A stretch of 64,000 bases of DNA, taken from Dysidea avara (Eukaryota > Porifera > Demospongiae > Dictyoceratida > Dysideidae). Numbering within the stretch: the stretch's first letter is position 1; each line of letters starts with the position of its first letter. Shown one piece after another: positions 4,091 to 64,000 of the stretch. The notes below the pieces were generated by a model that was given only the letters and a program-made list of their open reading frames with translations, searched no databases and was not told where the DNA came from. The position numbers and the translations under genes were made by a program. The stretch spans positions 31,264,368 to 31,328,367 of the forward strand of contig NC_089276.1 of NCBI RefSeq assembly GCF_963678975.1, written 5' to 3'.

Positions 4091-4113
4091 AATAAGGGAA
4101 ATGGCGGAAGGGA

Positions 4114-4518
4114 ATGCGGCACCCCATTTCGTCTCCGAAGAAAAATGTACCCATGGTGGCAACTGAGTCTTCTTGTGAATTACCAGCACCAACCTACGCC
4201 CCAACGGAAGAGAGTGGCACGTTTGTACTTGCCGAAGGGCCTTTCGCTTACTCTGAAATGAAGCGATTCATACGGGAGGCAATCGATGAGAAATTTGATC
4301 AGTTTGAAAAGGGTACTCTTAAGCCCTATTGTGAAAAAATGAAGACTGCTGGGACGGAAAATTCGATGGAGAACCTTTATGAAGTGCTACAAACTCAACT
4401 ACGTGCTGTAACGAAGGACCTGAGCGATAACTTGTGTGCTACCATCAGACAACAATTGTCATCTGGCCCACACTATGATCAGCCTGATAGTAAATCATTG
4501 GATAATAAGCCTGAGAAG
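4114..4518 (+). CDS. Candidate first exon, unknown protein
   Basis: An ATG at 4114 opens 135 codons that end at a good splice donor (AAG then GTAGGC at 4519); beyond the donor the frame becomes compositionally different. The peptide is rich in charged residues and likely helical between about residues 45 and 115 (FAYSEMKRFIREAIDEKFDQ, then MENLYEVLQTQLRAVTKDL). No family is recognised. The exon ends in phase 0. The next convincing exons (5704-5730 and 6212-6273) start in phase 1, so at least one connecting exon is missing or the join is wrong. An alternative is a single-exon 204-aa ORF ending at 4728. Confidence 0.4.
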
Positions 4519-4889
4519 GTAGGCTCCACTCATGTGCATCATACAGTACACAGTATATTAGGAGGCTTGCACTTTCTCTCAAGAAATGATGACCAGAAAT
4601 CAGCCTCACAATACCATTCTGGCACCTTGGCAATATTGGTGAGATATAACCAAGCCCAAAAGTGCTTTCGGTATGACCCAAAAAGGCTTCCAATACTAGC
4701 TGATGTTGCCTATAATTTTATTCAGTGAAATTTTCTAATGACTGAATGATGCCTTCAGACAAGTGTAACTCAATAACAGCTAAGACTATGGTCTTTATTT
4801 TTAAGAAGAAGATGACCAGCTTTATTGAAGATAAAAGGTAAGACAAGGCACAGAAGACATACACTCGTCAGAACCCCAAAAGGCACATG

Positions 4890-24100: not shown

Positions 24101-25182
24101 GGGGTGTCTTTGAATGTGTCGGCATGGATTTTGTGGAGCTTGACCTCAGCTCTTCTGGGAACAGGTATGCTCTAGTCTTTCAAGACTATTTGAGTAAGTG
24201 GCCTGAGGTGTATGCAGTGGCAAATAGGAAGGCTGAGACTGTAGCACAGTGCCTATTAGAACTGATTTGGAAACATGGAGTGCCAAGGCGGATAATCCAT
24301 GATAGAGCAGCTGAATTTCTATCCAATCTATTACAGGAAACAGCACAGTTGATCGGCATAGAACAATTGCTTACGTTAGGAGGTCACCCTCAGACTGACG
24401 GCCTAGTTGAATGGTTCAACAGGACATTAAAACAGATGCTGCAGAAGCTAGTGAGTAAGGGTGGCAAGGATTGGGACAAGAAGCTTGGTCCCGTGTTGTT
24501 TGCGTACCGCACAACGCCGCATTCACTGTCGGATGAAACTCCATTCTATCTGGTTAATGGGAGAGACCCAAATCTACCAAGTACATTGAGTTTTAGTGTG
24601 CCCCAAGTTAAGTACCCTGTGATAGAGACTGAATTCGGGAAGGAGCTGGATAAGGAACTGAAGTATGCTCGAGAGCTGGCAAGGAAGAACATCCAATCTG
24701 CACAAAGGGCACAAAACAGCATTATGACAGAGGTGTCAAAGATGTAGAGCTACAGGTAGGAGACCTTGTGATGTTGAAAGTGGAGCCGAGGTTTCAAGTC
24801 TACAAGGGACCATTTCAGATCAAGTCACTGACGTCAACCAATGCAGTTATTGTGTTAAAGAGTGATGATAACACTGAAGAGATGAATGTTTCACGACAAC
24901 GACTGTCCAAGTGTAGACGAGAGATGGCTGAGGCAACCCCTTGGGTTGGACACTCAGGCAGGCTTAACAAGAGAAGACAAGTGAGGAGAAGGGAGCCCAA
25001 AGTAGCCACACAACAGGAAGGAACTGTTGATGATTCACTAGAGACTGCTACCACTGATTTAACACACCCCAAGTTCTCTGCTACTACCACTACTAGGAGC
25101 GGACACCAGGTTAGGTTACCTGCTAGATTCAGGGAACATGGAAAACTTCACCCAGGCTCAGCTTTGAAAAAGGGGGGGAAGT
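21198..25182 (+). pseudogene. Gypsy-type pol: protease, RT, RNase H, integrase (decayed)
   Basis: Domains are in the Gypsy order. Protease is near 21360-21680, with the active-site block reading FLDHGAQVSLV where the family has D-T/S-G. Reverse transcriptase is near 22270-22960 (FRTDPHRLPYAL, KKDGSLRVCVDYRGIN, catalytic YLDD at 22770). RNase H is near 23230-23610 (TDHQSL). Integrase runs from about 23880, and its core D, D and E are at roughly 24124, 24298 and 24406. The HHCC zinc region has AGYFA where AGHFG is usual. Lesions include a frameshift near 21650, stops at 21901-21972, a CAG-to-TAG nonsense at 22605, and frameshifts near 23230 and 24742. A basic C-terminal tail follows to 25187. 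In a live element pol copies the RNA and inserts the cDNA; this copy is dead. Confidence 0.95.
25165..25182 (+). promoter_or_regulatory. Polypurine tract of the retroelement
   Basis: GAAAAAGGGGGGGAAG lies directly before the 3' LTR, which begins TGTAAGG. This is the position where plus-strand DNA priming occurs in LTR retroelements. Confidence 0.85.
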
Positions 25183-25376
25183 TGTAAGGTGATTAATGAT
25201 AGTAGTATCCGGAGCAGGACGGAGCTGAGAGGAGAGTCACAGAAAGTGCGGGAAGCGACTTCGTGTCAAGAGGAAGACTGACAATATAGGGATCGTAGAA
25301 GTGAAGTCGTGATTATTTTATGATTGCTTATATGACTGTTAATGATTGTTAATGAATTATTGAATCAAGTTTTACA
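25183..25376 (+). repeat. 3' LTR of the Gypsy element, 194 bp
   Basis: It begins TGTAAGGTGATTAATG and ends GTTTTACA, the usual TG...CA termini. It matches 34281-34474 (minus strand) over the same 194-bp length with roughly a dozen differences, which fixes both boundaries. The 5' LTR of this copy is missing. Confidence 0.93.
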
Positions 25377-43003: not shown

Positions 43004-43466
43004 CACTAATATGGGGTGGGGGAAGGTCAGGGATGGTGGGGGAATTGTACCTATTAATTGTACGTATTTTATGGCTGTTGGTTGCTACCAACAGACCTTT
43101 GGTGTTTTTTTTTACACCACCAAGCCTAAATAAATAAAATAAATTGATCACCAAATTTCCCCGACATAGTGGGGATTTGTCTTCACTAAAGAAATTCACT
43201 CAGACAGCGAAGGTGTGTGCTTTCAGTTTAGGAAGGAGTGTCTCAGGCGCTAGCTATTATTTTCATACTAGAATCCACTCGAACTAACTCATCACTAGAC
43301 TAACGCCACACGACCGCACAAATCCCCTCCTAGCCCCAACATTCCCGGGGTTTGTAGGTCGAGACTTGGTCAAGGTTTGCATTGCTAGTGCCTCCCCAGT
43401 AGGTGGGGAATTGTAATTTTCAGTGATGCAAATCCCCACCTTCCCCCACCACAGCCCGTATTAGTG
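43004..43466. mobile_element. GC-boxed MITE-like element
   Basis: Left CACTAATATGGGG...TGGGGGAAGG is mirrored at the right by CCTTCCCCCACC...CCCGTATTAGTG. The interior has GGGGATTTG phrases resembling those in the 1550-1946 element and an (AAATA)n tail-like stretch near 43125-43143. No clean target duplication, so boundaries are approximate. Confidence 0.5.
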
Positions 43467-43600
43467 CATATGTGGCTTGAAATGAGGTATGTAAGTTTGG
43501 AAATTAGACTGCTTGTTACTGGTTACAATAGTAACAGAGTAACAACCATGTTAATATCCTTGTGTACACCTATGAATACTACCAACTGCATAACATCAAA

Positions 43601-44136
43601 CAACAGTGGGTAACACCAGGCAACAGAGGGTAACACCAGGCAACAGTGGGTAACAGCAGGCAACAGTGGGTAACAGCAGGCAACAGAGGGTAACAGCAGG
43701 CAACAGTGGGTAACAGCAGGCAACAGCGGGTAACAGCTGGCAACAGTGGGTAACAGCAGGCAACAGTGGGTAACAGCAGGCAACAGGGGGTAACAGCAGG
43801 CAACAGCGGGTAACAGCAGGCAACAGTGGGTAACAGCAGGCAACAGTGGGTAACAGCAGGCAACAGAGGGTAACAGCAGGCAACAGTGGATAACAGCAGG
43901 CAACAGAGGGTAACAGCAGGCAACAGAGGGTAACACCAGGCAACAGAGGGTAACACCAGGCAACAGTGGGTAACAGCAGGCAACAGTGGGTAACAGCAGG
44001 CAACAGTGGGTAACAGCAGGCAACAGTGGGTAACAGCAGGCAACAGTGGGTAACAGCAGGCAACAGAAGTTAACAGTGTGTAACAGTAGGCAACAGTGGG
44101 CAACAGCATGTAACAGAGGGTAACAGCAGGCAACAA
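43601..44136. repeat. 20-bp minisatellite, about 27 units
   Basis: Units are CAACAGTGGGTAACAGCAGG with sparse A/T/C variants. The period is exactly 20 over most of the tract. Because 20 is not a multiple of 3 and the unit lacks stops on the minus strand, all three minus frames are open for 155-185 codons of CCYPLLPAVTH-type repeats. None should be taken as a gene. Confidence 0.97.
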
Positions 44137-44139
44137 TGG

Positions 44140-46160
44140 TCTAAGTTCATACCTGGGAGCAATACAATATTTCCTGATTAGAAAATTAGTGGTTAAGCTC
44201 TCCTAGTTTCCAATCGATTTACCACTGTTATATATTAGTAAAATTTGTAGCCAATAACAAATAGCACATATATACTTGAATAATGCTTTATCAATTTTGA
44301 AGCAGCTAATAAGGTGTTGAAAAAAATTAACATCAGGGGTTGATTTATGGTGGGGTATGCTTGGGATGCTGGACCATTCCTTCAAGATTACTACTATGAC
44401 ATAGCAGGGAAGATGGTACAAAGCATGGTGCAATTACGTGTTAAAAACATACAATGCAGAAGAACGGTTAATTTTTCTATACTTATGGAGGAGACATCCT
44501 TAAAATGATTCATTTTTTAGTAGTATATAGGGATCAAATTAAGTATAAAATCAAAAATTCTAACAAAACAGTCATGCATAATGAACATCTAATAGCAATT
44601 TCATCAACTATATAATTGCAGTGGAAACAATTTCTTGCTTCTATAATCTTTTTGTTCCCACCATCCTGTCACGTCAAATCTAAACTTTTCATAAAGACCT
44701 AGTCTATAAAAACCGGGCATGTGGGTACACATATATCAGATGCATGGCTTACCTTTGTGGCACAGCCACCAGACATTTTACCCTCTAATAAGAATGTAGA
44801 TGGCTTTTTAAGTCAGTTTACAGAATGTATAATATGTTATTCTACATGATCTTATAATCCTATTATGTGGAGTTATAGTTGTAGTTACAGTACATGGAGT
44901 TCCAATCCACGTATAATCCTATTACATACGTGAGCTGAGTTACATGTGACTCTGCCAACATGGTCAACTATATTATGCATTTTATTACCTTTCAGACCAA
45001 GCAAGATTCCAAACCAAACTTATGTACATGTATGCTTGCAATAAGTGCACAATAGAAATGTCAGATGTACCAGTACCTTGCATTAGTTTTTATGTTGCAT
45101 CATTATAACACGTCATACTCAGTATTAATTTATGTATTTGCTGTCTAACTATGGACTTTACCTGCAATTACATCACAAGTGTAAAATTGGCTGCCATAGT
45201 TGTGGATGTGCTTAACAATTTGTATGGGCAACTATGGGAATTGGACAATTATATATGTCTCAGAAGATATCAAGCTCTAACCGACAGGTATGGCTATATG
45301 TAGAGACACTGTAATCCAAACAATTTTCGAAAGATACTTAAATGTATTCCCAAGATCCCTAGTTCCTGCTACTATCGTTAATATTTTATGCTAAATCGAT
45401 TTACACATCAAACATGTATGGATCAAACCTTTCTTCTGTACCAGTAGTTATATTAGTGATCTGAGTTACACATGACTACTGTAGTTTAATACCTTTCAGG
45501 CCAAACAAGATTCCAAAGCAATCGTTAATGCTTTAACTGTATTCAGTCCTCTAGGATATTATCAAGAGTTAACTTGTGATGCTATACTTTAAATCTTTGC
45601 TTCCAAATTGTTACTAAATTCAATGCTAGAAAGAGTATTTTTAAAAATTACTTGAAGGCATACCTCCAGACCCTGGATAGCCATGGAGCTTGCTCTACTA
45701 GCATGCTTAGTATGCTTTGCACATGCATCCACTGTATTAGTATCAACCAGTTAGATACCCCATTAAATTTTGCTCCAGTTAGCACTCCTCCTAGGGTCTG
45801 CCCTTGAATGTATACTTCATAAATTTGGGCTCTGATTACATGACTCCAACATGATGTATATACAATTTCTACACAACAGTTTCTGAAAAAAAGTTAAGTG
45901 CACAGCTGATAATATGCATAAGCACAGTAAATCTGTATGGACACTCGATAAACAAGCTATATAATACTGAGTACTTATAGTTGATTTATTATGATCCTTG
46001 TTTACCAAGCTTTGCATGTATGTCTACCATATTGAACTCTAGTTCTCTACAACCATTGTAATCATAATTTATGAATTGGTGTCATATTGCACATGTATAC
46101 AATTTCATAAATAAATACACTGTCATACAAACACTACCAAATAATTACAATACTAATCAC
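44140..46160. other. No gene seen downstream of the KDZ gene
   Basis: AT-rich sequence with no long frames. TTTATT at about 45983 is a possible poly(A) signal for the minus-strand KDZ gene. No inverted end matching any other place in the window was recognised, so a left terminus for a KDZ element was not found. Confidence 0.35.
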
Positions 46161-46161
46161 A

Positions 46162-49100
46162 TCAACTGTCAGTTGTCTTTGGCTTTGGAGCCACAACTCT
46201 TAATCCATTAGCATAGCAATAAGAAATATATTTGTTGCGACGCTTTATCATTCGGTGTAAAAAGAAATGAAAATGTGTCTTTGGCATGGCACAAAGTATC
46301 TTCTTAAAGCGGCTCAACCATGCAAATGTTTGCTCACATGCCATCGTATTCAAATCTGGTTTAGCTTTACGTAGGTTTTCTGAGCTATACTTCTGTTTAC
46401 AGGAAGCATCACGATGATTTTTCATATGGAAATCATCAATAACTTTGTTCACATCTAACCAAATATATTTCAAGTCATTTGGTAGTGGTAGTGGTAAGCG
46501 AGAAACTCGCAAATTATTGAGGTGACACATATTATCATAAGATATGGTCAGTGTTTTCCAAGCATCTCGACCTTTAGTTCCAAACTGGCACACTAGCCAC
46601 ATCACCACTAACATGAAAACTTGAGCTGGACCCTCCGACCTACAAACAAAATAACAGTAACTATGTAATATGTGACCAGATTTGTAAAAAGAACACCTTT
46701 TCCACACATTGACATGTCAGTAAACAACTGCTACTTCTCTGCACTGGCGGTATGAAAATAAAGTAGGTTTAATCATGGAAAATAGAAAACAAATTTCAGC
46801 ATTGATACAAAAGTTACAAAGTTTTAAAGTTCACAAATGGGTCAAATTGTATGTGGGAAAGTAGTACCTTTTTGCAAATACAGTCACATTTTATACAATA
46901 ACAGCATTTTGACAGCTACCATGTGTGTACAAAGTATCAAGGGATGATAACCCCCATGTTATGCCTCTGGTGCTGTAGTAATGTTTTAATAGGATTCCCC
47001 GCAAAAGTGATATGCACCACTAAAATGTTTTGTCTAAATACCCCTTGGAATTAAAATAAGCAAGAAAGGTCACCAACTTAGTATATCTAAATCATATGCA
47101 GCTCTACAACAAGAAAAGATGACAACCCGGATTTTCCTCTGCCTGTTTGATCAATGATCCTAAGTTAGAGGCTCATAGATGCAACAAACGGCCACCATTT
47201 CAGGCCACAATGAGTGGCATGTACCCATTCTAGTTACAAAGAGTGTCTGTCTTCTGTGTTTGCCTTTCTTCTTGCATAGATACCTGCCCTACCAGCAGGA
47301 CCATCTAGCACATTCCAAAATAATGTCCTTCTACTAAATAATTATGTACAGTAGCACAGAATTATAGTGAATCACAACATTCCAGTTATTGAAGTTCTGT
47401 GATGTGCATGCTTACTGTATGTGTTTGAATTTTTTTAATCTTACTTGTACAATGGTTGCCATCTTTCTATATGGCCTCCAGCACCAACACAAAACCATGT
47501 TCCTCTTGTCCACTTCTGTAGTGTGCCAGGTTTTTCTCCTGTGTCCTTGTTACATGTAGTTTTTGTTGCTGTCACTTCTTCAGTCTGGTCCACTGCTTTG
47601 GCAAATTCAGCATAGCTTTTAATACCAGAATCAGTTCCTGGATATTAAATTGATTTTATAATACATTTGGCCATTTAAGGCTACACATGGTATATCATAG
47701 TGCATTCACAGGTGTATTCACACACTATACTCATTATCATGTATAGGGAATTGAGGCACACACTAACATTAATGATATCTTATAAATATTTATCCTAAAA
47801 GTGATTGGCAGAGCAGCAAGGTAAACCACAATTTCCTACATTGTATTTTGACCTTTATTTGAAAAATGTTTTAACAAGCAAGAAAGTGAAGTCTGTAAAT
47901 TGGAATTTAGGGTTTATTTTGCCACTTCAATAATTGCTTCTTTTTTGTTGCCTTTCAGGGTCAGATGTGTAGCTACTTGTATGGGCATCTAAGGCAGCTG
48001 CCTCACGAAATTTTGGGTGGTTCAGTGAATTGACAAACTAAATAATCTGTCATTTTATATTTATTCAAAATTTTCATAAACTTTTAATGAGCTATGCTAT
48101 CTAGTTTACCCGAGATAATGCTGAGGGAAGACCTCAGAAGTAATTCCAGATAGGCTCAGAGGTTTTAAGTTGTCATACAAGATCAATATACCCTAATAGA
48201 GCAGTCTGTCTCATCAATTAAAAAAATTCTGGCTACATCCTTATTTTAGTTTTTCATTCCTTTTTAATGATTGTTCTAATAGAATGACTGCTAAAGTCGT
48301 GTTATGGCAACTGCTTCACTAGGGTGTATCGTTCTTATGTAATAATCTGGATTAAACTCTCTATTGAAGCATGATTAGTATTTGACAACTTTCGTCATAA
48401 ATTTTAAATTCACTGAAGCCAAGCAATTTATATAGCTAGAGTTGTACCTTCTGCATATGTATAATTTTAATCTAGGTATCTCAATAATTATCTACACTAT
48501 TATCATGTGTACCTGGTTGATGGAAACTGGTTAATTTGTTGTATGGCTTAACCCATACAGGAAGACGGAGAAAGCCAGGAACAAAAATAGTATCAGACCT
48601 AAAATTTACTTTGCTTTCAACTAAGAGTAAATTACTGGGACTCGATGTAAATATGGAAATTATGTCACGTGTCATTTAGCTTCTAGTCTTTCAACTGCTA
48701 TACTTACCTAGATTCCAAAATCAACTTATGTAGTTTTGTATAATTTTAATATTTCAAATTCAAGAATGCCTCAAGTGTTGATGGTTGTGATAAGTGATAG
48801 ATGGTTGTATTCAGTTTTTTATTTGAAATGGTTTTGTTATTAAGGATTTGACTATATTTGTTTTGACTGCTATTAATGCTTTAAAAATCCTACCATCTTT
48901 TAATGTTGGTGCAAAAGCAACTATATGGGGTTGCAGATCCCATGCTGAAAAATTTTAAAAATCCATGGGAAAAGTTGTGGCATAGAGATTTTTAATAATT
49001 TTAGTATCAATTTGAATTCTAAAACTTCTACAGCTTCTAGGGGTGCAACATAGGTGCAACTCCCAGACTCGTTTGAAATTTATTTATTTACAGCTATATA

Positions 49101-52100
49101 TATATATATATAACAATGTTCATGCTGTCCCACCTGTATGTCTGGTCTAGAATTGCCAGTGTTTGACATCATGAGTTGTATAAACAATGCTAATTTACAC
49201 AGTACATTTAAGTCAACAGAACAGAATGATTATGTTATTGACATGCATAGGATAGACCTGTCCAGCCCACAACAAATATGCTTGCAGCACCTTTGCATAT
49301 GGTGGGATGCCTGTTTCACACATTACAGCTCAGTCTAAAGCATTCCAGAACATCATTTACATGTAGTACTTTGTCAATAGCAAGTTATCTTGTTTATCGG
49401 CAAGTTACATTACTTAATGCTTTGTCACCTACCCACCAACCCTACTACTTCAGTCAAAAGAAAAAACCCAACCTTTCAGTGATTGACAACTGACATGGGA
49501 TCCCAGTTTGGAGGGGCACAGTGTTTATTGCTTAAATTAACAGTAATTCTCAAGGAGATGACAATCTCTCAAGGGGAGCAATTTTAATAAAGATATTGCT
49601 GCAGCAACATCATCCCACCTCCTTTGCCTAAGAGATTTCACATGCCCCAGTGAAGTCCTGGGCTTGTCCAATTTATCACCAAGTTAGCTTAATTACATAA
49701 GCCATAACCATGCAATAGTTTTACTGGCCTGCCTAGGATGCATGTGAGATTGTGATGCTTGCGTGGATGATGTCATTTGGGTCAGGGGCTAAAATAGCTA
49801 CTTTTTACAACTAGCCCAACTCGAAACCAGAGGGAGAGAGAGGCGCTATATTACACAGAGGCATAACCAGAAGGTGTGTGTGTTTTACAACTACAACAAA
49901 AAGTACTGGTAGCAGGGGTCTGGGGGCCCAGCTGTTGAAAGACTTTGAGCATTTTTATAGTACAAAAGTCAACTTGTTTCGACTTTTTATTTTATTGAGG
50001 ATGTGCCAAACACATGCACCCTAGTGCATGATCATTATATGTGAGTCTATTGATTTCATTCTAATACTGCAGACTACAGTATGTAGTATGTGTAAACTCA
50101 CCCCTATATGATAGGTGCAGGTCAGGTTTGCTACACGGTTTATATAAACTGTTAATACAATAGACTTGAATGATTTAGTTGAAAATAGTTATTTTGAGAT
50201 TGGGTATTTTTAAAGTGAAATGTTATTTACAGTAAACTTTAATGATCTGTGCTAATTTTGCCTCACATGTACATTTTACAACTAGCCTATTCATCATTTA
50301 CAACTAGCCAAAGGTCAGTTATAACTAGCTTTTTGGCCACAAATAGACCCCTTTTTTGCGGTACTCACATGTGGCTAGTATATGAAGGTGATGAACTATA
50401 TGTAAATAAGGAAAGGAGTAGTAAGTCTAGTGAAAAGTAGTAATGTTCAAGCATGTATGCAAGAAACTACCAATGTATCATGAAGAGTTTAATAACAAAA
50501 ACTAAAGACAACATTACAATGACATACCCTGACATATTGCAGCTGATTGAACTGATACATCAACATTCTCTGAAAAACATTGAACATGTTTTTTGAAGTT
50601 GAGATATTCTTTTAACGTCACAGGAACACCTTTCTTCTTCATCACCTCAGAGTGCTCAGAGCAAAAGGCATTTCCAGGTAGAGGTCCATTGGAGCATGTT
50701 TTAACATAATTTAGATTGTTGGAAAATGCATCTTCGCTTTTATCAACATCAAACATGCATACAGGGTAGTGCAATTTCCAATTTCCATCAATGGCCCACA
50801 ATTCTCCACATCCTACAGTTGAAAAATATGTGCTATATACATTAAACCAAATGCATACTGATATATTTCTGACCTCGTTTTTTGCATTCATCAGAGCAAT
50901 TTTCATGTTTATAAACTGAATTGGCCCTTTTTATGTCTACTTCTTCCATGTAATTTTCTTGGGCTTGGGGTCCACTGAAAATATAACTACGGTGATTCTC
51001 TTCAGACAATTCTTTTTCGATTTGATGTGTCCACCAAGCACTTGCTACACTCTTGCGGTGCAGAAGCTGACTAGTCTGTTGCTCTTGGGAGTCATCTGAA
51101 CATATGTTAAAAGGTTACAAATTGAAGAATGACTGAAAGTAAGTGCAATATAACAATAAGATGGAAGTTATAGAGTCCTATGAAAATCGTAGGATATATT
51201 CATTAATGTAAGTACATATGTGATGTAGTGGTGACAAAACCTAGAGGGTCTATTGCCTAGTGTGTGGTTGGAACTATATAATCTATATACATATACTGTA
51301 TGCCACGCATATTTCACTATATCTTCTTACATACATATGCTAGAGTATCCACCATACATATCTAAATTTGATACGTTTACAACCATTTCACACAGTTTTT
51401 TTAATCGATACTCACTGCATGTATCAGGAAAGCTCAATTTTATAGTGGCAAGAGTGGGTGGAAGGGTGGTATGACATTTTACAAAGCATAAAAATTAAAG
51501 CACCATTTTAGGAATCGGTATGGATAAGCCAAGTTATGAGCCAATTAGTACTCAAAACCAGCAACTCAATATTTAACACCGTGAAACTGTACAGCCACAC
51601 AGCCATCTCTTAGTTGACATATAAGTCCCAGGCAAAGGGAGACCTCACACACTGAACTTATTACTTTATATATATTATTATTAAAATGTGACCGGGCCTG
51701 CAAAACACAGGGCGTGTGGCCACATAAACTTTGTCCACTTTTTATAACTTTGCTGACTCATAATTTCTTCTGTCATTTGGCTATGGCTAAGCAATGTTCA
51801 TCACTTATTGTGAATTTAACTGGTCATGTAATGCAAGTTACAGAATGAAAATATTCTCTTCCAGCACTGAGATATGTTTTGTTCTGTGATGAGATTAGTG
51901 CATGCCGACATGCCCAATTTTCGCAGGTCCGGTCAGATATTTTATTTCATGTATTCATTTTGTAAAGCATGACGGTAAATTCTACACATACATTAAGCTC
52001 CAACTGTTTTGGAGATATATAGACCAGTATAATTGTCCTTACAATTTTATTTCACAGGGTTCCATTATAATATTTTATTAACAGAGGATGTCCAAAATTT

Positions 52101-55100
52101 CTAGGGAATGCTTTCAGACCTTTAGAATGCCTGTTCCTACCGGCTCATTGTCAATGTCGCAGAGCTCACACTACTGTCTCCAAGACTGAGCCAGTTGACC
52201 AAGCTGCTCACATCTGTCAACAACACAGCAGCACCAATCAACCGATTTTTGTCCACGTTGCTACCCCAACTGCTATACTATTCCGGACAACTGCTGCAGC
52301 TTAACTGACCATGCAACTGGCCCCAGCCAACCAGGCTGCAGTTGGCCACGGTTTACAGCCAACTCACATCACCAACTGGTTACTTGACTGACTCAACCTA
52401 CTGTATGATTATAGTTTTCAACTGTAGTTGTGAAGTAAGAACCAATCTCCTAGGCTTAACTTTGTCATTGTCACAGCAGCTTCTTCGCATCTGCATCGTT
52501 CACTACTCACTCAGTGGTGGGGAGTACTGTGGCAACCAGCTACCAGGTATTAGCATTTGCTTACATCAAGAAGCCATTGAAGCCTATATCTTCACATTAT
52601 AGACCCACATTTCTAGTAATGGTTCTAGTTTTCACAATGAGTTCCAGTGAAAATCTATATACCCCAGGAACTTGAGAGTTTGAAGCGAGGACCTGTTAAG
52701 TACACCAGTCTGCATTGATTGGGTTTTGCTGAAACATACACTGTATTTGCTATGTGAGGTAGCTCAAATCAGGCAAAATGTTTCATGCTGATCAAAATGG
52801 TACAAAATGGACCACCACTGTAAGTCACCTTATACGTACTGTAGTTAAACAACACAGATGCATACTGGTGCTGTTAATTTTCACTGAACAACTGATTAAA
52901 TGATTGGAGATCATTGAAACTCTAATAATCGATAATACTAATTGATAATTGGCTTCCAAAAGTTTTACTGAAATGCACACCTATATTTGAAATTTTGAGT
53001 AGCTGTAAGAGCATGCTGAACAAGCTTATCACGATAAACTTAGCAAATCAGGTCTCAGCTATTTCATGTTTTTATCAATAAAGAATAGTTTAGCATACTC
53101 TGGCACAGATTTACTGTTTAAGAATTGCACCTTGATAGTAAGTATTTAATTGTACCGATTAACTGATTACGAACAATTATTTATGACCAATTAATTGGAG
53201 ATACATTCCGTAGCTGCACAGCGCCAATGTACAAACAAATCATGTTACTATACTGTGTTAACATACCTACTGCATTTGCTCTCAAGTTTACACTGTTGTA
53301 TTTCTTCAGAAAATACTTTAAATTAATATAATTGTAGTTATTGGTTTCCCTCATCCACTCATTGTATACTTCTGCAGATCCTTCAAAGCTTGTCCAGCAA
53401 TGATGCCTGCATAATAATACAGTGTGCATTAAATTGTGCTAGCAATAATGAACTGCAGAAGCTACAATACTTCACATACAATTCAAATTTTCCAATCACA
53501 TTTTTATACTGTACATATACAAAAGATTAAACTTCGGTTGGTTTTAAAGTATAGTCATGAAATAGCTACGTACTGTGAAATAATGTGACACATATTAAAG
53601 TTCATTTTGTGGAATACTAGTAAATTCATTGGTAAGTTTAAGGCTCTGTTTGCTTAAATATACCGCACATAATCATACTTGTTTAAAATATACAAACGCA
53701 CATTTGCACATTTGAGCTAGAGAACACAGCACACAAGCTAAGACAATTCACATATGATTTTTGAATAACACTGTATTGCCATGGTCAGCAAATTTACATG
53801 CAGGATTAACATAGCATGTGGACCCATAAACTAGCTACATAACCAGTGAAAGGTAGAATTTGTAATGTACAGCTTGATAACTTACCCAGCTGAAGCCCAT
53901 TTTTCACACAGAGCTCTTTCGATATAGCAAACATTAGATGCTTTTACCAGGTCATTTTCATTGTCATAAAATCTGTATGAAACATGCACAATCAAGTATC
54001 TAGCATCATGATAGCTCACACTCTAACCTGTATCCACCAAAGTATCTCCACCAAATGAGTCGTACCTGTAGTTGATACCACATGACTTACATCTTAAAAT
54101 AATCTTCTGGGCTGGGACAGGGCCGCTAATCATATAACAGATGACAGTAATTGGATTGTGGTTGATATGCAGTGTTGATGAGCATTGCAGACATTCAGTA
54201 CACTTAGGGCCAAGAAACTTGTTAACTGGTTTACCAAGTTTCATTGTTGCCTATAAAAGATTCATATCTGACATTTATTTAAAAGCACAAACTGATACTT
54301 ACCTCCCACAGGATTCTTTCTGATGGCTTTCCACAAAGTTCTTTGGTGACAGATGGCAATGCATCAGCTTCTGCTAACAACTGGTTGATAGTAGAGACTT
54401 CATAACTAGTTGAAAAAATTGAATTCATTATGGTGCAAATGAGAGCAGCTCTGTGATGCTTGTAGGTTGTTGGCACATGTTGTGAAAGCTGAATGAGCAA
54501 AGTTGCTTGATCAAATTGTCCATTTTCCATTGAACCCAGTAGAAGCTTTTCTGAGAAATGGAAATAAAAATGTAATGATGTCTCCTGGCCTTACTGGTAT
54601 TTATATAACTTATAATTAATCAGATCTGTGATGTCAACGGGCCAGGCAGAGGAGACTAGACACACATCATAGCCCTTACATAATGACAAAGTGATCATGA
54701 GTAGCAATTTCCTATGAGCAAACCACGGACAGTAGTGATGGTTTACACAGTTCTTATTGTTTTTCTTTTAGCTTATAGCTTTACACTGAACTTTTTCAAT
54801 AAAGGATAAAATTAGCAACAAACAATTTAATTATATTTAAGCCTAAATGATGAAAATTAAAGGCTTTATGATTATTGCTAGTAAGCAGTTGGCTTTTGCA
54901 GTAATATCTGAGCTAAACCATCAGCATGCATTAGCATGCAGGTATTCCATGAGCTAAAACTGTATAATTACCTTGCTAGTTACAGACCCATGCTATAATG
55001 TACATAGATTAACACTACTCTATCATGTAGGCTGCATATCTTCACTGTTTAATTGCAGTGCATAGTAATGAGTTAAACACAAAACCTAATGGTGTATGTT

Positions 55101-57113
55101 GTGATTTATATACCAGTGTATGCACAAGAACATAAGCTAATCTATCCCAGAACAGCACATGGGACAAACACAAAGTAGATCAATATGTCTTTTAGTCCAA
55201 CTCAGCATTGCCTGTGCTGATAAATTGTGGATACAAATGCTGGTTGATATGGGTGGGATTGATATATCGTTTGAGGTTAACACACTGGTACGTAAACACA
55301 CTAAAGTTATTGTGGTTTGTTTTTTCAGGAAAGTAGCTCACCAATATGTTTTGAGGGCTCCATGCCAGGGCTGAAAACTGTAGGCCAAAACGTTGGTAGG
55401 TAAAACTGTAGTATAAAGGTGCTATCAAGAGAATGAGGAACTTCTTGATATGGGCATGGGTCATATAAGTAAAAGGTATTCTCTCTACAGTTAAGTGGTG
55501 AACATTATGAAATATTCATGAGTGTCCAGATCAAGCACCAAACTATTGACAAGAACTTAGCTCTATTTTTCCATAAATCTTTTCCTAAACCATGTTCTAT
55601 GCACTTACCAGGGCTTATTGAATTATAGCCTATAGCCTACGTCTGCTAAAGTAAACTAGCTAGCTAGCTACTGTTTAATCCATTGAATAGAATAGGCAAA
55701 GTTGTAACTCAGTGCTAGAATGGACAAAAACGGTGTAACAAAACATATTGAAAAGAAAAGGTGCAACTAAAAGGCTAGCCAAAACAACAAAAAAAAACAT
55801 TTATTACCTGGAATTTGACCGACATATAATTTTACTTGTCAGATCTGTGTACTACCATCATGCTAATATGTGAAATGTGGTTAACTTCACTGTAAAAATT
55901 GTTTATGAATTCGAACGCATGAGTAGGTTGAACGAAATATAATTGTGGCTTATCGGATAAATTTATGCTGCACACCGTTGGGTGTGAATGACGAACAACA
56001 GCAGTTAGAAGCTTCATTTAAACATCAAGTTGTTCCTGTGCTAGGCTGTTGCACTTGAGGAGTCAAGCTATTTACAAACTGCATGGTTGAATGCAGAGAA
56101 AATCCTGAATCCCAGGCTATGTGGCTCCGGCAAGTAGCGGGATGTCAAGCATGATCAACACCTGGAAGTCTGCATGTGCTCATCACAGTTTTCAGTACAT
56201 GTTTCTGACTCCCTGCTTTACAGGCTGAGTGAAGCCTCAGCAGGCAGCTTGATTACTGTGACTTGTTTCTTGTCCCGACCACGTCACCCTTTATCTGGAT
56301 TACATCACCTCAAATTTCATTTTTTGCTGTTATCCGTCACATACACAAGTAATTTGCTGTTAAGAAGGCTGCATGGTTACTTAACAGTATTGGAAATCTC
56401 CCTATATGCAGTTCACTGAGCCATAAAGGAGCAAAATGTGAGTGTATTCCTCGGAAGGCTTTAGCTAAGCTTTATAGTGATAGGTAGCCTGCTATACTGC
56501 TGGTTTGGAGTATTTTCTTTTATTGTGAATAATGAAAACGACCTCCCTCCCACATACAAATCCCAAATTGTGGATGAGCCAAGTTTTCCAGGCCTACTAG
56601 CTATAAACCTCATGAACTGTACTAACTGGCATGTACAGAATGCTTGAACTCATATTAAATATTGTATGCAAACAGACAGATGGCTTTTCTCTGTCTCTCT
56701 TATATATATAAAGTTAGCCTAGCTATATATTTATGAGAGAGAAAAGTCGTCTGTATAATTATATAGCTATATAATTAATTCATATTATATATACCTTTAG
56801 ATTTTGTCTGTGGTTCACATTCCTGATGTTTTCTGGGATTTCTTTGGGACTGGGAACCAGGTGAGGCAACATCGGCATGATTACTAAATTCAATTGAGTT
56901 ATCTACTTTCGTGCTAAGATATCTCCCATCCGAAACAACCATAGCTCCAACTTTGGCGTTACTCGAGTCCAATGCTGATTCGTCTGTATCATCGATTTGC
57001 GTGTCGAAGGATTTGTCGAGATCATACGGGTTATCAATCTGTCCACTATCTTGTAAAACGATTTCATCCAATTCCTTCACCAACTTTCGTTTCCTTCCTT
57101 TCCTGGAAGACAT
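46162..57113 (-). CDS. KDZ-family transposase-like protein, nine exons, 718 aa, intact
   Basis: Exons: 57113-56795, 54550-54303, 54250-54066, 53972-53886, 53406-53267, 51095-50874, 50812-50528, 47637-47445, 46639-46162. All have GT-AG sites and matching phases, giving 719 codons with no internal stop. Residues 1-106 are basic then acidic/Ser-rich (SSRKGRKRKLVKELDEI). Residues 190-251 hold CxxC pairs (C206/C209, C243/C246), like the cysteine clusters that accompany KDZ transposases. C393, C397 and C402 precede AIDGNWKLHYPVC (D409). Residues 546-582 include TRGTWFCVGAGGHIERW. SYDNMCHLNNLR (D595) and ACEQTFAWLSRFKKIL (E662) match the KDZ core, so D409-D595-E662 is a plausible RNase H-fold triad. 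The start is the ATG at 57113; an open frame extends further upstream but has no ATG. DNA transposition or a domesticated derivative are both possible. Confidence 0.85.
46671..46888. mobile_element. MITE family A, copy 3, in the last KDZ intron
   Basis: Ends TGTGACCAGATTTGTAAAAA and TTTTTGCAAATACAGTCACA are inverted. It starts only about 30 bp upstream (in gene sense) of the acceptor of the last exon at 46640, yet that acceptor keeps its TTTGTAG consensus. Confidence 0.78.
46965..47345 (+). repeat. Dispersed repeat E, copy 3, in the last KDZ intron
   Basis: Shares AGGATTCCCCGCAAAAG, CGGCCACCATTTCAGGCCAC and TGTGTTTGCCTTTCTTCTTG wording with 6340-6700. Confidence 0.45.
47646..50525. other. 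KDZ intron 7 (2.9 kb)
   Basis: Between exons ending at 50528 and starting at 47637. It contains a motif copy (48181-48206), a (TA)n tract near 49095-49111 and unsupported short ORFs. A 64-codon minus frame (48481-48675) has no splice sites that would fit it into the KDZ protein. Confidence 0.6.
51687..51937. mobile_element. MITE family A, copy 4 (diverged), in a KDZ intron
   Basis: Ends TGTGACCGGGCCTGCAAAAC and TTTTCGCAGGTCCGGTCAGA are inverted. The interior has diverged from the other copies. Confidence 0.7.
52090..52600. other. GC-richer block in KDZ intron 5, unexplained
   Basis: Richer in CA/CC than its surroundings, with several open short frames (CGCAGAGCTCACACTACTGT..). It looks like decayed coding sequence of a mobile element, but I recognise no domain. 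Confidence 0.3.
54551..56794. other. KDZ intron 1 (2.2 kb)
   Basis: AT-rich, with no supported exon on either strand. A short TATA-rich inverted stretch lies at 56698-56790. Small ORFs at 55159, 55192 and 56174 are unsupported. Confidence 0.5.
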
Positions 57114-57281
57114 AGCTGAGAGCTCACCGCTAGTGTAGATATGCGCTAGTGACGCAATACGGCCAATCAACTTTCCGGAAGTAATTTTTTTAGGCGGCAA
57201 CCATGCAGCTTTCCATATAAGTCGGCTAGGGCATTCAGCAAAGTTATTTGTAGTTCCTGTGCTTTCTGTTCGTCGGACTTA
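57114..57281. promoter_or_regulatory. Shared 168-bp divergent promoter region
   Basis: It separates the start codons of the minus-strand KDZ gene (57113) and the plus-strand NTPase gene (57282). Both genes must start transcription within or beyond this gap, so they are likely to share a bidirectional promoter. No clear TATA box was seen. The region is locally GC-richer (ACTTCCGGAAAGTTG near 57169-57183, an ETS-like core on one strand). Confidence 0.6.
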
Positions 57282-60200
57282 ATGGCTTCGGGAGGAAGTG
57301 CAGCTGGATCGAGTTCAAGTAAAGAACCACGAAAACTAATAGTCAGGGATGGAGAAATCGGTAAGTAGCATATTTACTGAAAATGCATGCTTACATGTTT
57401 CATGCTGTGTGAGCATACATGTCAGCAACTTCGAGGAGCTTTTCTGCACCTATATTTATCTAGTTATAAACTATACCCAAGCCCATAGCCATAGCTAGTT
57501 GGCTATACATTCTTTATCCCTGTATAGGTCTAATGCGTGGTAGTGGGCAGTTCGTTCGGTACACCAACTTTGATGTTGAAGTTCTGTTTGCTGCCATAAC
57601 ACCCAAGGACATCTCCCCGACACTTTCCGGATTTGTTTTTTTGATTCGCTCAAATGATGGAACAGAAAGGTGACAGTAAAAGTCAATTAGCTATAGTTAG
57701 CTAGCTAAGGTGTATTTGCAATGATGATTACTCTGCATGTACAGCTAGCTATATATATATAGCTGTGCCACGGCATGCATGCAGTAAAGCTGTTTGTGTA
57801 TACAATATTCACTTCTTGCATACAAACAGGTGCATGCACTTTAAAGGCATACATTTTCTATTAAAATAAAATAAATATATGTTCAATGTTAACACATACA
57901 ATTGAAAATTGACTTCAAGGCTATTTATTTATTTATTTATTTATTTAAATGATATTTAATCAGGGAAAATAGCGTCAGCCAAAGAAGGCTGTTTTTCAGC
58001 TATGCCCTGAGACTATATGCTGTGTTTGAAGATAAATATATGATTTCCACAAAAGTTTTTCTTTTACACATTATAGCTATGTATAGCAGCTATAGGGACT
58101 ATATATCAAGTGGAAATTTCACTGTGATTTAGCAAGTGGTACAGAACTAATTTTGCATCATCATGGTATGCAAATGTATATGCAGTAGTTTTCTAAAATG
58201 TTCTACCTCCAAAATAATTGACTGTATGAATGAGTATATAGTTGTGTAGCATAATAGCTAAGCTGTATATCCTTGAAATTTGAAATATAGTAGCTAGCTA
58301 CATACGTATATAAGGATGAATAAAATACATAAAGTTCAACAATGCATGGGAAAGGGTGACTTGCTAACATTTCACAGACATACAAATTAACGTGTACAAG
58401 TTTTCTTGGTGTGCATGTCTATAATTATGCATTGAACGAATTGAAGAGGACAATAATATCCCATGCTTTTGTATCAAGAGTTAATAATACAAAATAATGA
58501 GGAAGAGTTACGTATAACTGCCAATGTAGTCTGTACAAAATCACTATGTACAGTTCCATCAGAGTTTATCTTTGATAACCTTTTAAGATTATAAAGAACT
58601 GTTGATAGGTGTTGAATAAGGTGAAGGTGGTGTTGATACACTCCACAGTGATTTTGAGTACCAAATAAAAATGGCTCAAGCTCTAGCATGGCTGGATTGG
58701 CTGGGAGTGCCTCAGACACTGTCTTTGGGCAGCATTGTCAAACTTCAAAAGGTATCCAAAATCTAATTGCTTTAGATAACAGTTTAAGGGTGCTCTGTAC
58801 AGTCCACTTATATGGCTTCCCATGAAATTTAATTTGTTCTATAACTTTCCGTACTTTTTTACTGGATATAAGCTAACACTAGTACACAGTTTAGTCCAAA
58901 CCCAACTGCTAAATTTGCTTTAGAACATGAGTTACAGTTTTTCCCTTTATACTAGAACTAGTCCTACAGTTTATGCACAAGAGCCTTGATACTTTTATGA
59001 TACACTATGCTAAACAGCACAAACCATTGTGCGTTTTTATTTTTGTCTTTTAGCTTCTCATTCATCACATATTTATCTTTTGGGTTGACACTCCCAGAAA
59101 TCCTTTTCTTTACTTCCATGTTATTCATAATCTGGACTTGCTATTTAAAAATGGCAAACGCTCTTCTTTGGCAACATTACTAAAGTAGCTTGTGTGAAAA
59201 GTTCATATCCATTGGATTAGAAATGATGGAGTACGTAGTTCTAATTTAAGTGAGAGGGTGTAGAATAGCAAGATGCGTGCTCTTGTTGCTATGGGATACC
59301 TAATTTATGGGTACTAAAATGTGTCAACATGTCACAGACTAATTAAGTGACCATAATATTTCTTTTAGTGCAAAACAGACTATGTCTTGGGAAGCCTTGT
59401 ACAAACTGTACAGAGCACCCTTAACATGATTATTCTCTTGAATCTTCCTATACACTCTGTTACACAATTTTCTATAATGAAATGGCCATAAAGTTCACCA
59501 AAGCTCAACTCTGTGATGACACTATATCACAAATTTCAGAGTACTATTTATGTAGAGAATTGCATTGCATGGTTTTATGAAAACGTGTGTAATATTTGGG
59601 TTTTGCCATTCTATTATAAAGATCTCCCCGTAGAGGTGATTAGATCCCCTTTCCCATAAGGTGATAAGTCCCATACTCCGAGTTTATTAAACCTATTGTA
59701 CGTATATACAACAGATTCTACAGCAAACAGTAAAAAATTATTTTGTATCATTTTATATTTTAATTACAGCCACAGTTTTGTCAGCAATCACCACATTCAG
59801 AGTCTTAGAACTTTCATTGGTAGTGCTGAGAGGAATCACCATGGTCTCTGTTACGCAAAGATAAATGATGACCTTTGGAGTCTGTATATCTTCGAGCTTG
59901 TACAGGCTGGAAGGCAAACATCTAGTTGGTCTATTAAGACCCTAGTTACTTGTCTTGGTAGGCAACCAGCTTCCTCTACATGGGTACTGGGACCAGATAT
60001 CCAAGTTAATAGCTCAGGAGACTTGATTCCATTGGAAGACCAGAAATACTATTGGTTTGTATTTAGTTACCAATGCTGTATGACTAGCTCTGTATGAATA
60101 GTCAAAAAATATAATTTTAGAAGAGGTTTTTAAATAGCCATTCACATATAGAACTCATGAAATCATAATAAAATATGACTGTGAATGTGACTGTATATCA

Positions 60201-63200
60201 ATCACATGGCTGTGTTTTGACACCAGAAATATTACTTATAAAACAGCTTGCTTTTAATGCATATCTGCCTGTAAATGATTGTGAACAATTTTCATTGTTT
60301 TAAATGTTTGAAGTATCTTTTAAAATTGCACTATATGCTTTCCTCAGTACTTCACTAAACACAAAAATTCCTATTAATTCAAGCACACCAATATAAGGGA
60401 TTTTCAAAAATTTGGTAACAAATGTCAACACTGCATTTTAACTATCATGTTATAGGTTAAAGCTTATTTGTATACTGATCATGATGATATAACATGAATA
60501 AATGTTTTATTTAGAATACAGCTTATACATGTTCTGACAGTAAAAACCAAGTGCTCTTTTTGCAGGTATTCTGGGTACTGTCATCATGGGACACAACTTC
60601 AAGAACTAAAAATTGAATTACCCCTTGGTACCAACTCTCTCGTTCAACTAATAACTGCTGAAAAAGAAGGCCTATCCAACAATTTTATCAGCTCATTCAT
60701 TGCACATGCAGGAAGCCTAGTAGTTTTTCATTCAGAAGCTCTGAAAGAGGTACAAGATGATTGTCCGATTATTCTTTGCTACAGCAAACATTCTGGAACA
60801 GGTATATAAAATAATTTCACTACAATGAATTGTATGCAGATAGCTATGCATATAAGCAAGCATGTTTATCGTGCTTAAAATATATCAAAATTACTAACCT
60901 ATATTTTTGTATGTTTTAAGGGAAATCTACAACAGCTAAGAATATTTTGGGTACCTTTGGAGCTGCTCAACATGCATTCTCGGCAAGGTCGAGTACTGCC
61001 AGCATAGTTAACCATGCATCAATTTCAACGATAACAGTGGGTAAGTTTAGCTAACTTTGTGTACGGTAACATTCGGTATTCTGAGTACGTATATATAAAT
61101 AGTGGCAGACGACATCAACAGTACAAAGAAGTTTGAAGAATTGACGGTAGAACTATTCAATGATTTTTCAACAACTACTATGCAAGGGGGGGAGACAAAG
61201 CACAAAGCAGGGATTATAGTCACTGCGAATACTGCATTTGCTGAAACACAAAGGTTAGCTCTAGTTTCACAATGTGTATAAAAACATGTATATATGCACG
61301 ACCAGTAAAGAGATACCACCATGTATGTATGCATGACCACCAGAGTATATTATATGTATGGCATACCCATATTTTTTTTTGTAGAAAAGCTCAAAGGATT
61401 GTCCATGTTCCTTTTTTCGAACCTTTGTCAATCCATGACGAAGCGAGGCAAATTGAAATTGAAGACAGCTACAATGACTACCGGAAAGCAGCTTCCAGTG
61501 CAATAGGCTATATTATAAGTATAAGAGATCGCCTATTGTCATCAAGGAACAGGAGATACATCGGTGAATTGTTGCTCCCTTTTATTTCAGTGCATTTAAG
61601 CAATGTCCACCATCGGACAAAGAAAGGCTATGCCCTTGTCCTTTTAGCAACGAAACTGGTAAGCGTGTTCTAACAGGTATTACAAACATTCAGCTTTGCA
61701 ATTCTAGCTTTGCGATGAAATAGAAGGTGTTATAACATTTGAAGAAATTCTAGACTTTTTTGTGAAGAAATGGGCCCCCATTGTCAATGAACTACACAGT
61801 GCAATATCAGCAAATGATGTTGAAGAAGTGCTATGGGAGGTGCTTGAAGTTATTAGGGAACTTCCAACAAATGAAGTGAGAAAGCTGCAGATATGTATTA
61901 TATTATCATTACGTGTATATATTTATAGGTAATACAGATGGTTCTTTCAAATACCTTCAAGAGGAAGACTAAAACATTATGTGTATCAATATATTGTCCA
62001 GTACTTAGAGAGCACCTAAATACCGAAGCAAAGAAACGACTTGAGGAAATCAAAGATGCTGTCAAACAAATGGGTGGGGAAAGCAACGGTGGATGCCGGT
62101 TTCTGAAATCTGGATGCAAGGACACCCGTTGTACCAGCAACAACACTTCCACTTGCAAAGGCGTGTTGCAAATACCCCGAACAAACATATCTGAACGATT
62201 ACTAAGGCTGTTAGACTCAGGTACGTGATAAATTTTTCATGAATTGGTAATACATGTAGTATGTGTAATGTAACAATATACAGTATGCTACCCACACAAA
62301 GAACATCCTGGGGTTGAAGAAGAAACTGATACACCACAAATCACTGGTAGTATGTCGACCCGGCAAGTCACCATAGCTGAGTTGCTAGGTGATCCTAGGT
62401 CTGACACAGAAGGTAAGGTTGATGCACACTCACGTCATACTATACAATGTATGAATAGTAGTAATGAACCCTGTAACTCTATAACAGTAACATGACACAC
62501 CTGTACTTATGTAGAACTAACAATTTAACACATAGTTTTAATTCTGATTGTTGCTAGATCCAGAACAATTTTTGGATAATATGGATTGGGATGATCTAGG
62601 TAATGTTAGTGCAAGTATTATAAGTCTTGCATATAATTCTTTTGTAGAGAATGATGGTGACTCACTTGGTAAGCTCAATTAACCATATGCTTTATGGCTA
62701 GATAATATATACTTGGACAACCTGGAGTGACAATAAGTTGTGCATAACAATCTAAGAATCTGTATGGAAGTGTTAAACTCTTTGGTTGTCTATCAGTAGG
62801 GAATATAACTATTTCAATTTAAACAGCTGTCTAATTGCTGCTCATGTTTTATTCAGTGTCAACAACTCTGCTAGCTACCCCAGTAACTTTGGTGCCACCA
62901 ATAGTTCCATCCACTAGTGGTAAGATGACTTTATATTTGCATACACAGCTTTCTAACTGTTACCGCTCGTGTTTTACTCAGGGTCGACAACTCTGTCAGC
63001 TGCTCCAGTAACTTTGGTGCCATCGTTAGTTCCATCTGCTAGTGGTAATATGACTCTGTATTTGCAAATGCACAACTTTCTAACTGCTAATGCTTGTGTT
63101 TTATTCAGTGTCAACAATTCTGCCAGCTGTCCCAGTAACTTTGGTGCCACCTACTAGTGGTAAGATGACTTCATATTTGTATACTTTCTATTTGCTGCTC

Positions 63201-64000
63201 GTGTTTTGCTCAGGGTCAACAACTCTATCAGCTGCCCCAGTAACTTTGGTGCCACCATTAGTTCCATCTACTAGTGGTAAGATGACTTTGTATTTGCATA
63301 CACAGCTTTCTAACTGCTACTGCTCGTGTTTTATTCAGTGTCAACAATTCTGCCAGCTGCCCCAGTAACTTTGGTGCCACCAATATTTCCATCCACTAGT
63401 GGTAAGATGACTTCATATTTGTATACTTTCTATCTGCTGGTCATGTTTTACTCAGTGTCAACAATTCTGCCAGCTGCCCCAGTAACTTTGGTGCCACCAG
63501 TAGTTCCATCTACTAGTGGTAAGATGACTTTTTATTTGCATACACAGCTTTCTAACTGCTACTGATCATGTTTTATTCAGTGTCAACAACTCTGCCAGCT
63601 GTCCCAGTAACTTTAGTGCCACCAACAGTTCTATCTAGCAGTGGTAAGATAATTTAATATTTGTCTATACAGCTTCCTAACTTCTGCTGCTAGTGTTATA
63701 CTCAGTGTCGACAACTATGTCAACTGTCCTGGTGCCACCAATAGTTCCATCTACTAGTGGTAAGATGACTTTGTATTTGCATACACAGCTTTCTAACTGC
63801 TACTGCTCATATTTTATGCAGTGTCAACAATTCTGCCAGCTGTCCCAGTAACTTTGGTGCCACCAATAGTTCCATCCACTAGTGGTAAGATGATTTCATA
63901 CATGTATTTGTATACTTTCTATCTGCTGCTCGTGTTTTACTCAGGGTCAACAACTCTGTCAGCTGCCCCAGTAACTTCGGCGCCACCATTAGTTTCATCT
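57282..64000 (+). CDS. P-loop NTPase with C-terminal tandem-exon repeat, intact, runs off the window
   Basis: Exons: 57282-57360, 57528-57669, 59770-60054, 60566-60801, 60921-61040, 61103-61253, 61385-61658, 61708-61875, 61929-62220, 62284-62412, 62558-62599, 62648-62668, then ten repeat exons from 62857. All phases fit, with no stop over about 847 codons. A P-loop (HSGTGKSTTAK, residues ~245-254; a Lys stands where the first Gly is usual) is followed by ITVADDIN (~285-293, Walker B-like), GIIVTANTAF (~324-333, sensor 1-like) and RIVHVPFFEP (~342-351). Such order is seen in D5/SF3-like and related AAA+ helicase-type ATPases; this is inference. A cysteine cluster (C541, C548, C553, C561) and an acidic stretch (DNMDWDDLE) precede the Pro/Ser/Thr-rich repeats. 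It is divergent from the KDZ gene, 168 bp apart. No named family recognised. Confidence 0.8.
57921..58010 (-). repeat. (ATTT)n plus LINE/SINE-like tail in intron 2
   Basis: On the minus strand GGGCATAGCTGAAAAACAGC ... TTTTCCCTGATTAAATATC is followed by an (AAAT)n run. This looks like a retroposed 3' end with simple-repeat tail. Confidence 0.4.
58788..59420. mobile_element. piggyBac-like MITE with TTAA duplication
   Basis: Ends GGGTGCTCTGTACAG and CTGTACAGAGCACCC are perfect inverted copies. TTAA flanks both sides (58784-58787, 59421-59424), which is the diagnostic target of piggyBac elements. The 633-bp interior has no long frame. It lies in the 2.1-kb intron 2 of the NTPase gene and accounts for much of that intron's length. 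Confidence 0.85.
62857..64000 (+). repeat. Tandem exon-intron array, at least ten units
   Basis: Exon copies: 62857-62919, 62982-63044, 63109-63159, 63214-63276, 63339-63401, 63456-63518, 63581-63643, 63706-63759, 63822-63884 and 63945 to the window end. Each starts after a CAG acceptor (GTTTTATTCAG or GTTTTACTCAG) and ends ACTAGTG then GTAAGATGA (the seventh ends AGCAGTG). Lengths are 63, 63, 51, 63, 63, 63, 63, 54 and 63 nt, always a multiple of 3 and phase 1 to 1. The encoded unit is about 21 residues, (V/G)STxLxAxPVTLVPPxVPSTS. Introns are 54-64 nt in two sequence types (with and without GCATACACAGCTTTCTAACT). Unit period is 105-127 bp. Confidence 0.95.

Follow-up and report, generated by a model that had tools for sequence, protein, structure and literature searches.

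In bacteria, DDE transposases that work with an ATPase of their own are a familiar finding. Mu (MuA/MuB), Tn7 (TnsB/TnsC) and IS21 (IstA/IstB) each combine a DDE transposase with a gene for an AAA+ ATPase, and the ATPase of IS21 is described as dedicated to its transposase (PMC11208146). Eukaryotic DDE transposons with a helicase gene are likewise on record, a RecQ helicase being reported for KolobokH (PMC9587614) and a helicase for AcademH (PMC10045372). In Kyakuja-Dileera-Zisupton (KDZ) transposons, the accessory genes named for fungal elements are TET/JBP dioxygenases (PMC12730594), which also reports an 8-bp target duplication in a Dileera element and a 7-bp one in Kyakuja. KDZ elements reach 30.3 kb in Ectocarpus and 31.7 kb in Chlamydomonas (PMC12477816), the function of most accessory genes of the Ectocarpus giant transposons being given there as unknown. 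Here we analyze a stretch of 64,000 nucleotides from Dysidea avara (the window; C5:31264368-31328367 of a 550.8-Mb genome, whose contigs carry C-numbers). Its locus of interest is probably one copy of a giant (~30 kb) KDZ-superfamily transposon with two head-to-head genes, one for a CxC5-DDE transposase and one for an AAA+ nucleoside triphosphatase (NTPase) followed by a linker and a PHD finger.

This element resembles described KDZ transposons in its CxC5 cluster, DDE core, many exons, 8-bp duplications and giant size, but differs from them in its divergently transcribed AAA+-PHD gene. Unlike the RecQ gene of KolobokH, the NTPase gene is separately transcribed, head to head with the transposase gene, and appears DUF927/primase-helicase-like. 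A literature search of titles and abstract openings gave, among the matches listed, no KDZ element described as carrying a gene for a helicase or an ATPase; the novelty of such an element is provisional, Repbase lying outside that search.

The paired genes and the ends of the element

Both genes were rebuilt from reading frames and splice sites, from which we also infer their splicing (Table 1). The first-pass annotation had described an intact-looking pair with start codons 168 bp apart, and the rebuilt models confirm it: both spliced genes are open inside the window, head to head, and the 168 bp between the two ATGs presumably serve as a shared divergent promoter. The accompanying claim that the pair carries no lesion holds inside the window and fails beyond it. 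The NTPase gene runs 5.2 kb past the window end, where its last exon has an in-frame stop between KRKKKRG, a basic, nuclear-signal-like stretch, and the frame of the PHD finger. The open frame of this exon comprises 57 aa in the window copy versus 72-73 aa at eight other places (those matched at >=95% identity), so that the PHD finger is lost from the window copy and kept at the other eight; a ninth place, C2:37771535 (89% identity), has its own stop in this exon. An array of 20 small exons, all of phase 1 with AG/GT borders, 51-63 nt long and each a multiple of 3 in length, continues past the window over L009:1-1432 (L009 coordinates denote the stretch beyond the window end) and stops at C5:31329799. 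It has the makeup of a minisatellite in which each repeat unit combines an intron with an exon.

The transposase frame of 718 codons contains D409, D595 and E662, as had been noted earlier together with cysteine clusters; motif and order suggest that these three are the catalytic residues. Equivalents of D595 and E662 are kept in every relative whose aligned stretch reaches them, and that of D409 is present in the single relative for which this exon was read. Residues 204-296 match Pfam PF18718, CxC5 (E 2.5e-9; 37.7 bits at a cut-off of 26.9), a profile described as 'cysteine cluster associated with KDZ transposases'. Both the DDE triad and the KDZ-associated cysteine cluster are found in the window protein. 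Relatives 54-59% identical to it exceed the cut-off of PF18758, the KDZ transposase profile, at six places.

Inverted repeats and target duplications, which the first-pass annotation proposed to look for below 46 kb and beyond 64 kb, were found: the left duplication and repeat occupy 43459-43491, and the right end lies at C5:31337388, followed by the second duplication at C5:31337389-31337396. Both genes sit in one DNA transposon of 29,555 bp, located by where similarity between copies stops. It opens with CATATGTGGC at window position 43467 and closes with CCAGGTCTA at C5:31337388, 9,021 bp beyond the window end. The terminal inverted repeats are imperfect; together with the 8-bp duplications they correspond to the terminal repeats and 7-8 bp target duplications of KDZ elements. 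An inverted-repeat listing of 44000-64000 does not contain the ends, both being outside this interval. Genome-wide searches allowing up to 3 mismatches gave 8 exact matches among 20 for the left end and 9 exact among 16 for the right end, compared with zero for reversed control patterns of both.

Copies and relatives of the pair in the genome

Seven copies with both ends are distributed over five contigs (C4, C5, C7, C8 and C9). Perfect 8-bp duplications flank five of them (C4a, the C5 window copy, C7, C9a and C9b); none was found at C4b, at the 47-kb C8 copy, or at shorter related pairs on C1 and C2. C4a, C7, C9a and C9b have in common a 2,253-bp deletion with the junction 56317|58571 (window coordinates), which takes out the first transposase exon and the first two NTPase exons along with the intergenic region between them. 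Each of the four nevertheless has its own flanks and a different duplication. If the deletion arose once, in one of these four copies, the shared junction and differing duplications imply no fewer than three moves of the deleted form. In the simplest reading its proteins were presumably supplied in trans by a fuller copy, although alternative starts or gene conversion may also account for its spread. First exons of both genes were matched in C5 and C8 only (of the seven; C4b is unread there).

Introns of the copies diverge from the window copy by 0.3-2.1%, so the copies are recent. NTPase exons 3-12 are free of indels and stops in C4a, C5, C7 and C8, carry a 5-nt insertion in C9b and a 6-nt insertion in C9a (1,726 of 3,001 positions covered), and contain several lesions in an older C2 copy. 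At position 61812 in exon 8, C9b and this C2 copy (38149513) share a 5-nt difference, an AAATT insertion as scored, that the others lack and that is possibly the result of gene conversion. Copy number and the ratio of nonsynonymous to synonymous divergence (dN/dS) had also been proposed earlier as checks. Relative to the older C2 copy, the window copy has an NTPase dN/dS of 0.20 and the other copies have values of 0.17-0.21, a sign of selection; ratios between young copies are noisy. For the last transposase exon, dN/dS is 0.17 in C4a, 0.45 in C7 and 0.26 in C8; the C4a transposase has a stop at codon 604.

Whether a KDZ gene and this NTPase sit head to head at other loci had been named as a further check. 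Manual merging of the matches gave 20 loci for the NTPase and 23 for KDZ, both lower bounds since the searches score best candidates only. Among the matches listed, 14 of the 23 KDZ loci lie no more than 60 kb from an NTPase locus, in every case head to head and in 13 cases within 20 kb. Random placement gave a mean of 0.11 pairs and a maximum of 3 in 2000 trials, in a control that placed only the NTPase loci randomly, counted any orientation and used guessed lengths for C10 and C12. Chance adjacency is therefore ruled out. One extra row, tail to tail on C6, derives from a tandem duplication, and a search with a distant (type-D) NTPase added a 15th head-to-head pair on C1, 33 kb apart. Most of the pairs descend from one another by copying, so the number of independent cases is about four, the count of diverged groups set by identity without a tree, and not 14. 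Measured on single exons, the diverged pairs share 49-65% (KDZ) and 32-49% (NTPase) identity with the window proteins, which indicates that the head-to-head arrangement is old.

A second family is represented by an element of about 34 kb with both ends found (C8:24055835-24089899), flanked on either side by GTTTCAGG as an 8-bp target duplication in this one copy. For its C3 copy, a duplication is absent from the 10-kb stretch searched, the element running on past it. The KDZ-side end of this family gave 7 exact matches; the 15 matches it gave at 2-3 mismatches do not exceed the yield of the reversed control (33 in all). The terminal motifs CATATG.GGC and TAGA..TGGC are alike in both families but stand beside opposite genes.

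Type-D NTPases lead to a second, different DDE-like protein. The type-D search gave 31 matches and a further set of loci, one of which adjoins an uninterrupted frame of 937 aa with DDE-like motifs and a DxxH motif recognized by eye and a weak OTU match (0.037); a C/DxxH signature is described in PMC9587614. The five closest loci of this OTU-DDE protein (itself included; 82-100% identity, five contigs) all stand head to head with a type-D NTPase, and their dispersed similar copies suggest that these elements are mobile. Nineteen type-D loci were compared with the KDZ lists, leaving out C9:1506307 as an NTPase already counted: one is head to head 33 kb from a KDZ locus, one lies tail to tail 52 kb from a KDZ fragment, and five pair with the OTU protein. 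The systematic OTU comparison covers the five closest loci; of the remaining rows (<=50% identity, and one 31-residue fragment at 87%), C15:1810257 shares its strand with a type-D NTPase ~20 kb away. That related ATPases are likewise oriented beside a second transposase-like gene suggests that the ATPase partner is part of how these elements move.

Identity and possible role of the NTPase

The Walker A, Walker B-like and sensor-1-like motifs reported earlier are present by eye as GTGKST, VVADDIN and VTAN. In five aligned members T-G-K-x-T and Asn246 are invariant, as are other residues, and Walker B is DD in four and EE in the fifth; Walker A, acidic Walker B and Asn sensor 1 thus follow each other in the order of AAA+/SF3-like proteins. 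Profile searches place the protein only weakly, as a DUF927/primase-helicase-like AAA+ protein, and the labels SF3 and MCM-like are our interpretation. DUF927 is matched in three of five single-member scans (best 4.4e-4, slightly short of its gathering cut-off), PHROG DNA primase/helicase in three (best 8.2e-6), DNA primase in four (best 0.0013) and clamp loader in two (best 0.0065). The window NTPase itself has no DUF927 row in its Pfam tables and matches DUF5906, nSTAND3 and RNA_helicase at 0.009-0.03. Its NCBIfam search gave nothing relevant. In the PDB there is a weak match to 8tch, 'Pathogenicity island protein' (E 0.22); a five-member profile no longer finds 8tch and ranks a stretch of lysozyme (0.3) and clamp loaders (0.85) highest, for which reason we give the 8tch match little weight. 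No prokaryotic or viral relatives were confirmed in viral or genome contigs with the single protein, or in viral contigs with the alignment, in searches seeded by short peptide patterns.

The first-pass annotation had likened the pair to Mu A/B and TnsB/TnsC. The likeness stays an analogy: those systems, like IS21, are bacterial, their ATPase families are unmatched by the present NTPase, and its weak matches point instead to DUF927/primase-helicase AAA+ proteins. Homology to MuB, TnsC or IstB found no support, none of these families being listed in the Pfam, NCBIfam or PDB searches. Other mobile-element AAA+ proteins, Cch of SCCmec and SaPIbov1 Rep, are connected by a distant DUF927 match; they are bacterial replication helicases, however, and the present similarity lies below the curated cut-off. 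DUF927 occurs in Cch, described as an MCM-like helicase of staphylococcal SCCmec (PMC7581432).

The recurrent head-to-head pairing suggests that the NTPase serves transposition as a dedicated partner. Most likely it would form an ATP-driven ring on DNA and remodel or unwind either the synapsed ends or the target, and the PHD finger would steer the complex to particular chromatin. Tentatively, and with no great confidence, we extend this to a family of general, exchangeable motors of eukaryotic DDE transposons, coupled to at least two transposase lineages (KDZ and OTU-DDE) and forming a eukaryotic counterpart of Mu, Tn7 and IS21 with a different ATPase. If true, ATP-driven target choice or control of strand transfer would become testable in eukaryotic elements, and a conserved ATPase with a gene of its own, coupled to two eukaryotic transposase lineages, may help to explain how 30-kb elements move.

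Several observations weigh against the reading of the locus as a two-gene KDZ transposon with an AAA+ partner. The spliced KDZ protein of the window has no PF18758 match (E up to 1), and first exons of both genes are missing in four of seven copies. Among the matches listed, C4b has no NTPase core match, its two ends, KDZ exons and PHD exon being kept; an NTPase within 60 kb is missing at 9 of the 23 KDZ loci, one of these having a distant partner in the type-D comparison; and 6 of 20 NTPase loci have no KDZ partner. All NTPase members score below the curated Pfam cut-offs, DUF927 coming nearest with 20.5 of 22.6 bits, and clamp-loader and nSTAND3 models match about as weakly as the DUF927/primase-helicase ones. 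Values of dN/dS among the youngest copies, which rest on few changes, range from 0.06 to 2.0, and the transposase gives 0.47 against C9b (exon 1 absent, one 3-nt deletion). Synonymous divergence of the window NTPase from C2 (38149513) is 0.31, more than the 11% by which the introns differ (103 of 906 aligned bases). This order is the opposite of the neutral-intron expectation and is unexplained.

Other roles for the NTPase were weighed. It is possible, if doubtful, that it is a replication-type helicase that unwinds the element or restarts forks in a copy-out or replicative step, instead of selecting targets or activating the transposase. This role overlaps with the dedicated-partner reading, which is compatible with more than one NTPase step. 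DUF927, DUF5906, PHROG DNA primase/helicase (8.2e-6, in one member) and DNA primase are its nearest families, DUF927 is reported in Cch (PMC7581432), and helicases are also carried by KolobokH (PMC9587614) and AcademH (PMC10045372). These family matches are weak, however, and no primase or polymerase was noticed among the element's long frames, the only frames looked at. Neither is needed for DDE transposition with 8-bp duplications, which counts against this role. A chromatin or anti-silencing factor that guards expression of the element from outside the transposition reaction is unlikely. The C-terminal PHD finger with its basic stretch and the TET/JBP dioxygenases reported in fungal KDZ elements (PMC12730594) would fit such a factor, but related NTPases pair with the second DDE-like protein, and beyond the family of the window copy with its relatives on C1 and C2 a PHD query gave only matches at <=40% identity, so that the PHD finger is no constant partner of the NTPase. 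Still less do we favor a dispensable passenger hitch-hiking in the element: C4b and the nine KDZ loci lacking an NTPase match would be expected of one, whereas an orientation that holds across about four diverged groups as well as the type-D/OTU group, and the low NTPase dN/dS, would not. A domesticated host locus, which the first-pass annotation had set beside a two-gene transposon and for which long open frames in an otherwise decayed window and the NTPase dN/dS of 0.20 would speak, is ruled out for practical purposes by seven two-ended copies on five contigs, perfect target duplications at five of them and the stop in the last NTPase exon of the window copy. The two-gene transposon is favored by its terminal repeats, 8-bp duplications, dispersed near-identical copies and the same pair in divergent families.

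Feature coordinates and other observations in the window

Table 1 Features of the element, its relatives and the OTU-DDE locus (window positions unless a contig or L number is given).
Feature	Position	Strand	Details
Left target-site duplication TATTAGTG	43459..43466	.	8 bp, perfect
Twin of left target duplication	C5:31337389-31337396		after right end, outside window
Left (KDZ-side) terminal inverted repeat CATATGTGGCTTGAAATGAGGTATG	43467..43491	+	8 exact genome copies
Subterminal 20-bp minisatellite	43585..44139	.	inverted counterpart near right end, L009:8421-8874
KDZ-superfamily transposase gene	46162..57113	-	9 exons, 718 aa
KDZ exons 1-5	57113-56795, 54550-54303, 54250-54066, 53972-53886, 53406-53267	-	
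KDZ exons 6-9	51095-50874, 50812-50528, 47637-47445, 46639-46162	-	
Intergenic segment between start codons	57114..57281	.	168 bp, read from sequence; presumed promoter
NTPase gene, exons 1-12	57282..62668	+	640 aa, putative DUF927/primase-helicase-like AAA+ core
NTPase exons 1-6	57282-57360, 57528-57669, 59770-60054, 60566-60801, 60921-61040, 61103-61253	+	
NTPase exons 7-12	61385-61658, 61708-61875, 61929-62220, 62284-62412, 62558-62599, 62648-62668	+	
Small-exon tandem array of NTPase gene, first part	62857..64000	+	P/S/T/V-rich linker
Last NTPase exon	L009:4973-5182		KRKKKRG stretch, in-frame stop, then PHD finger frame
PF18758-matching relatives	C3:1183048, C8:24086042, C12:2202026, C13:5428274, two on C6		
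Sites of family-motif comparison	43467-43491 vs C8:24055835 and C8:24089899		
OTU-bearing DDE-like frame	C8:26235277-26238087 (L081:2277-5087)	-	937 aa, stop to stop, uninterrupted
Type-D NTPase partner of 937-aa frame	C8:26242976-26243976	+	head to head

An Rfam scan and a bacterial-code tRNA scan of the window gave no matches. Open frames at 21210-25187 resemble a Ty3/Gypsy-type retrotransposon, with protease, reverse transcriptase and integrase motifs seen by eye. A further repeat is indicated by the peptide LVRYNQAQKC...YDPK, common to 4096-4728 in the window and L010:7613-8011 outside it.

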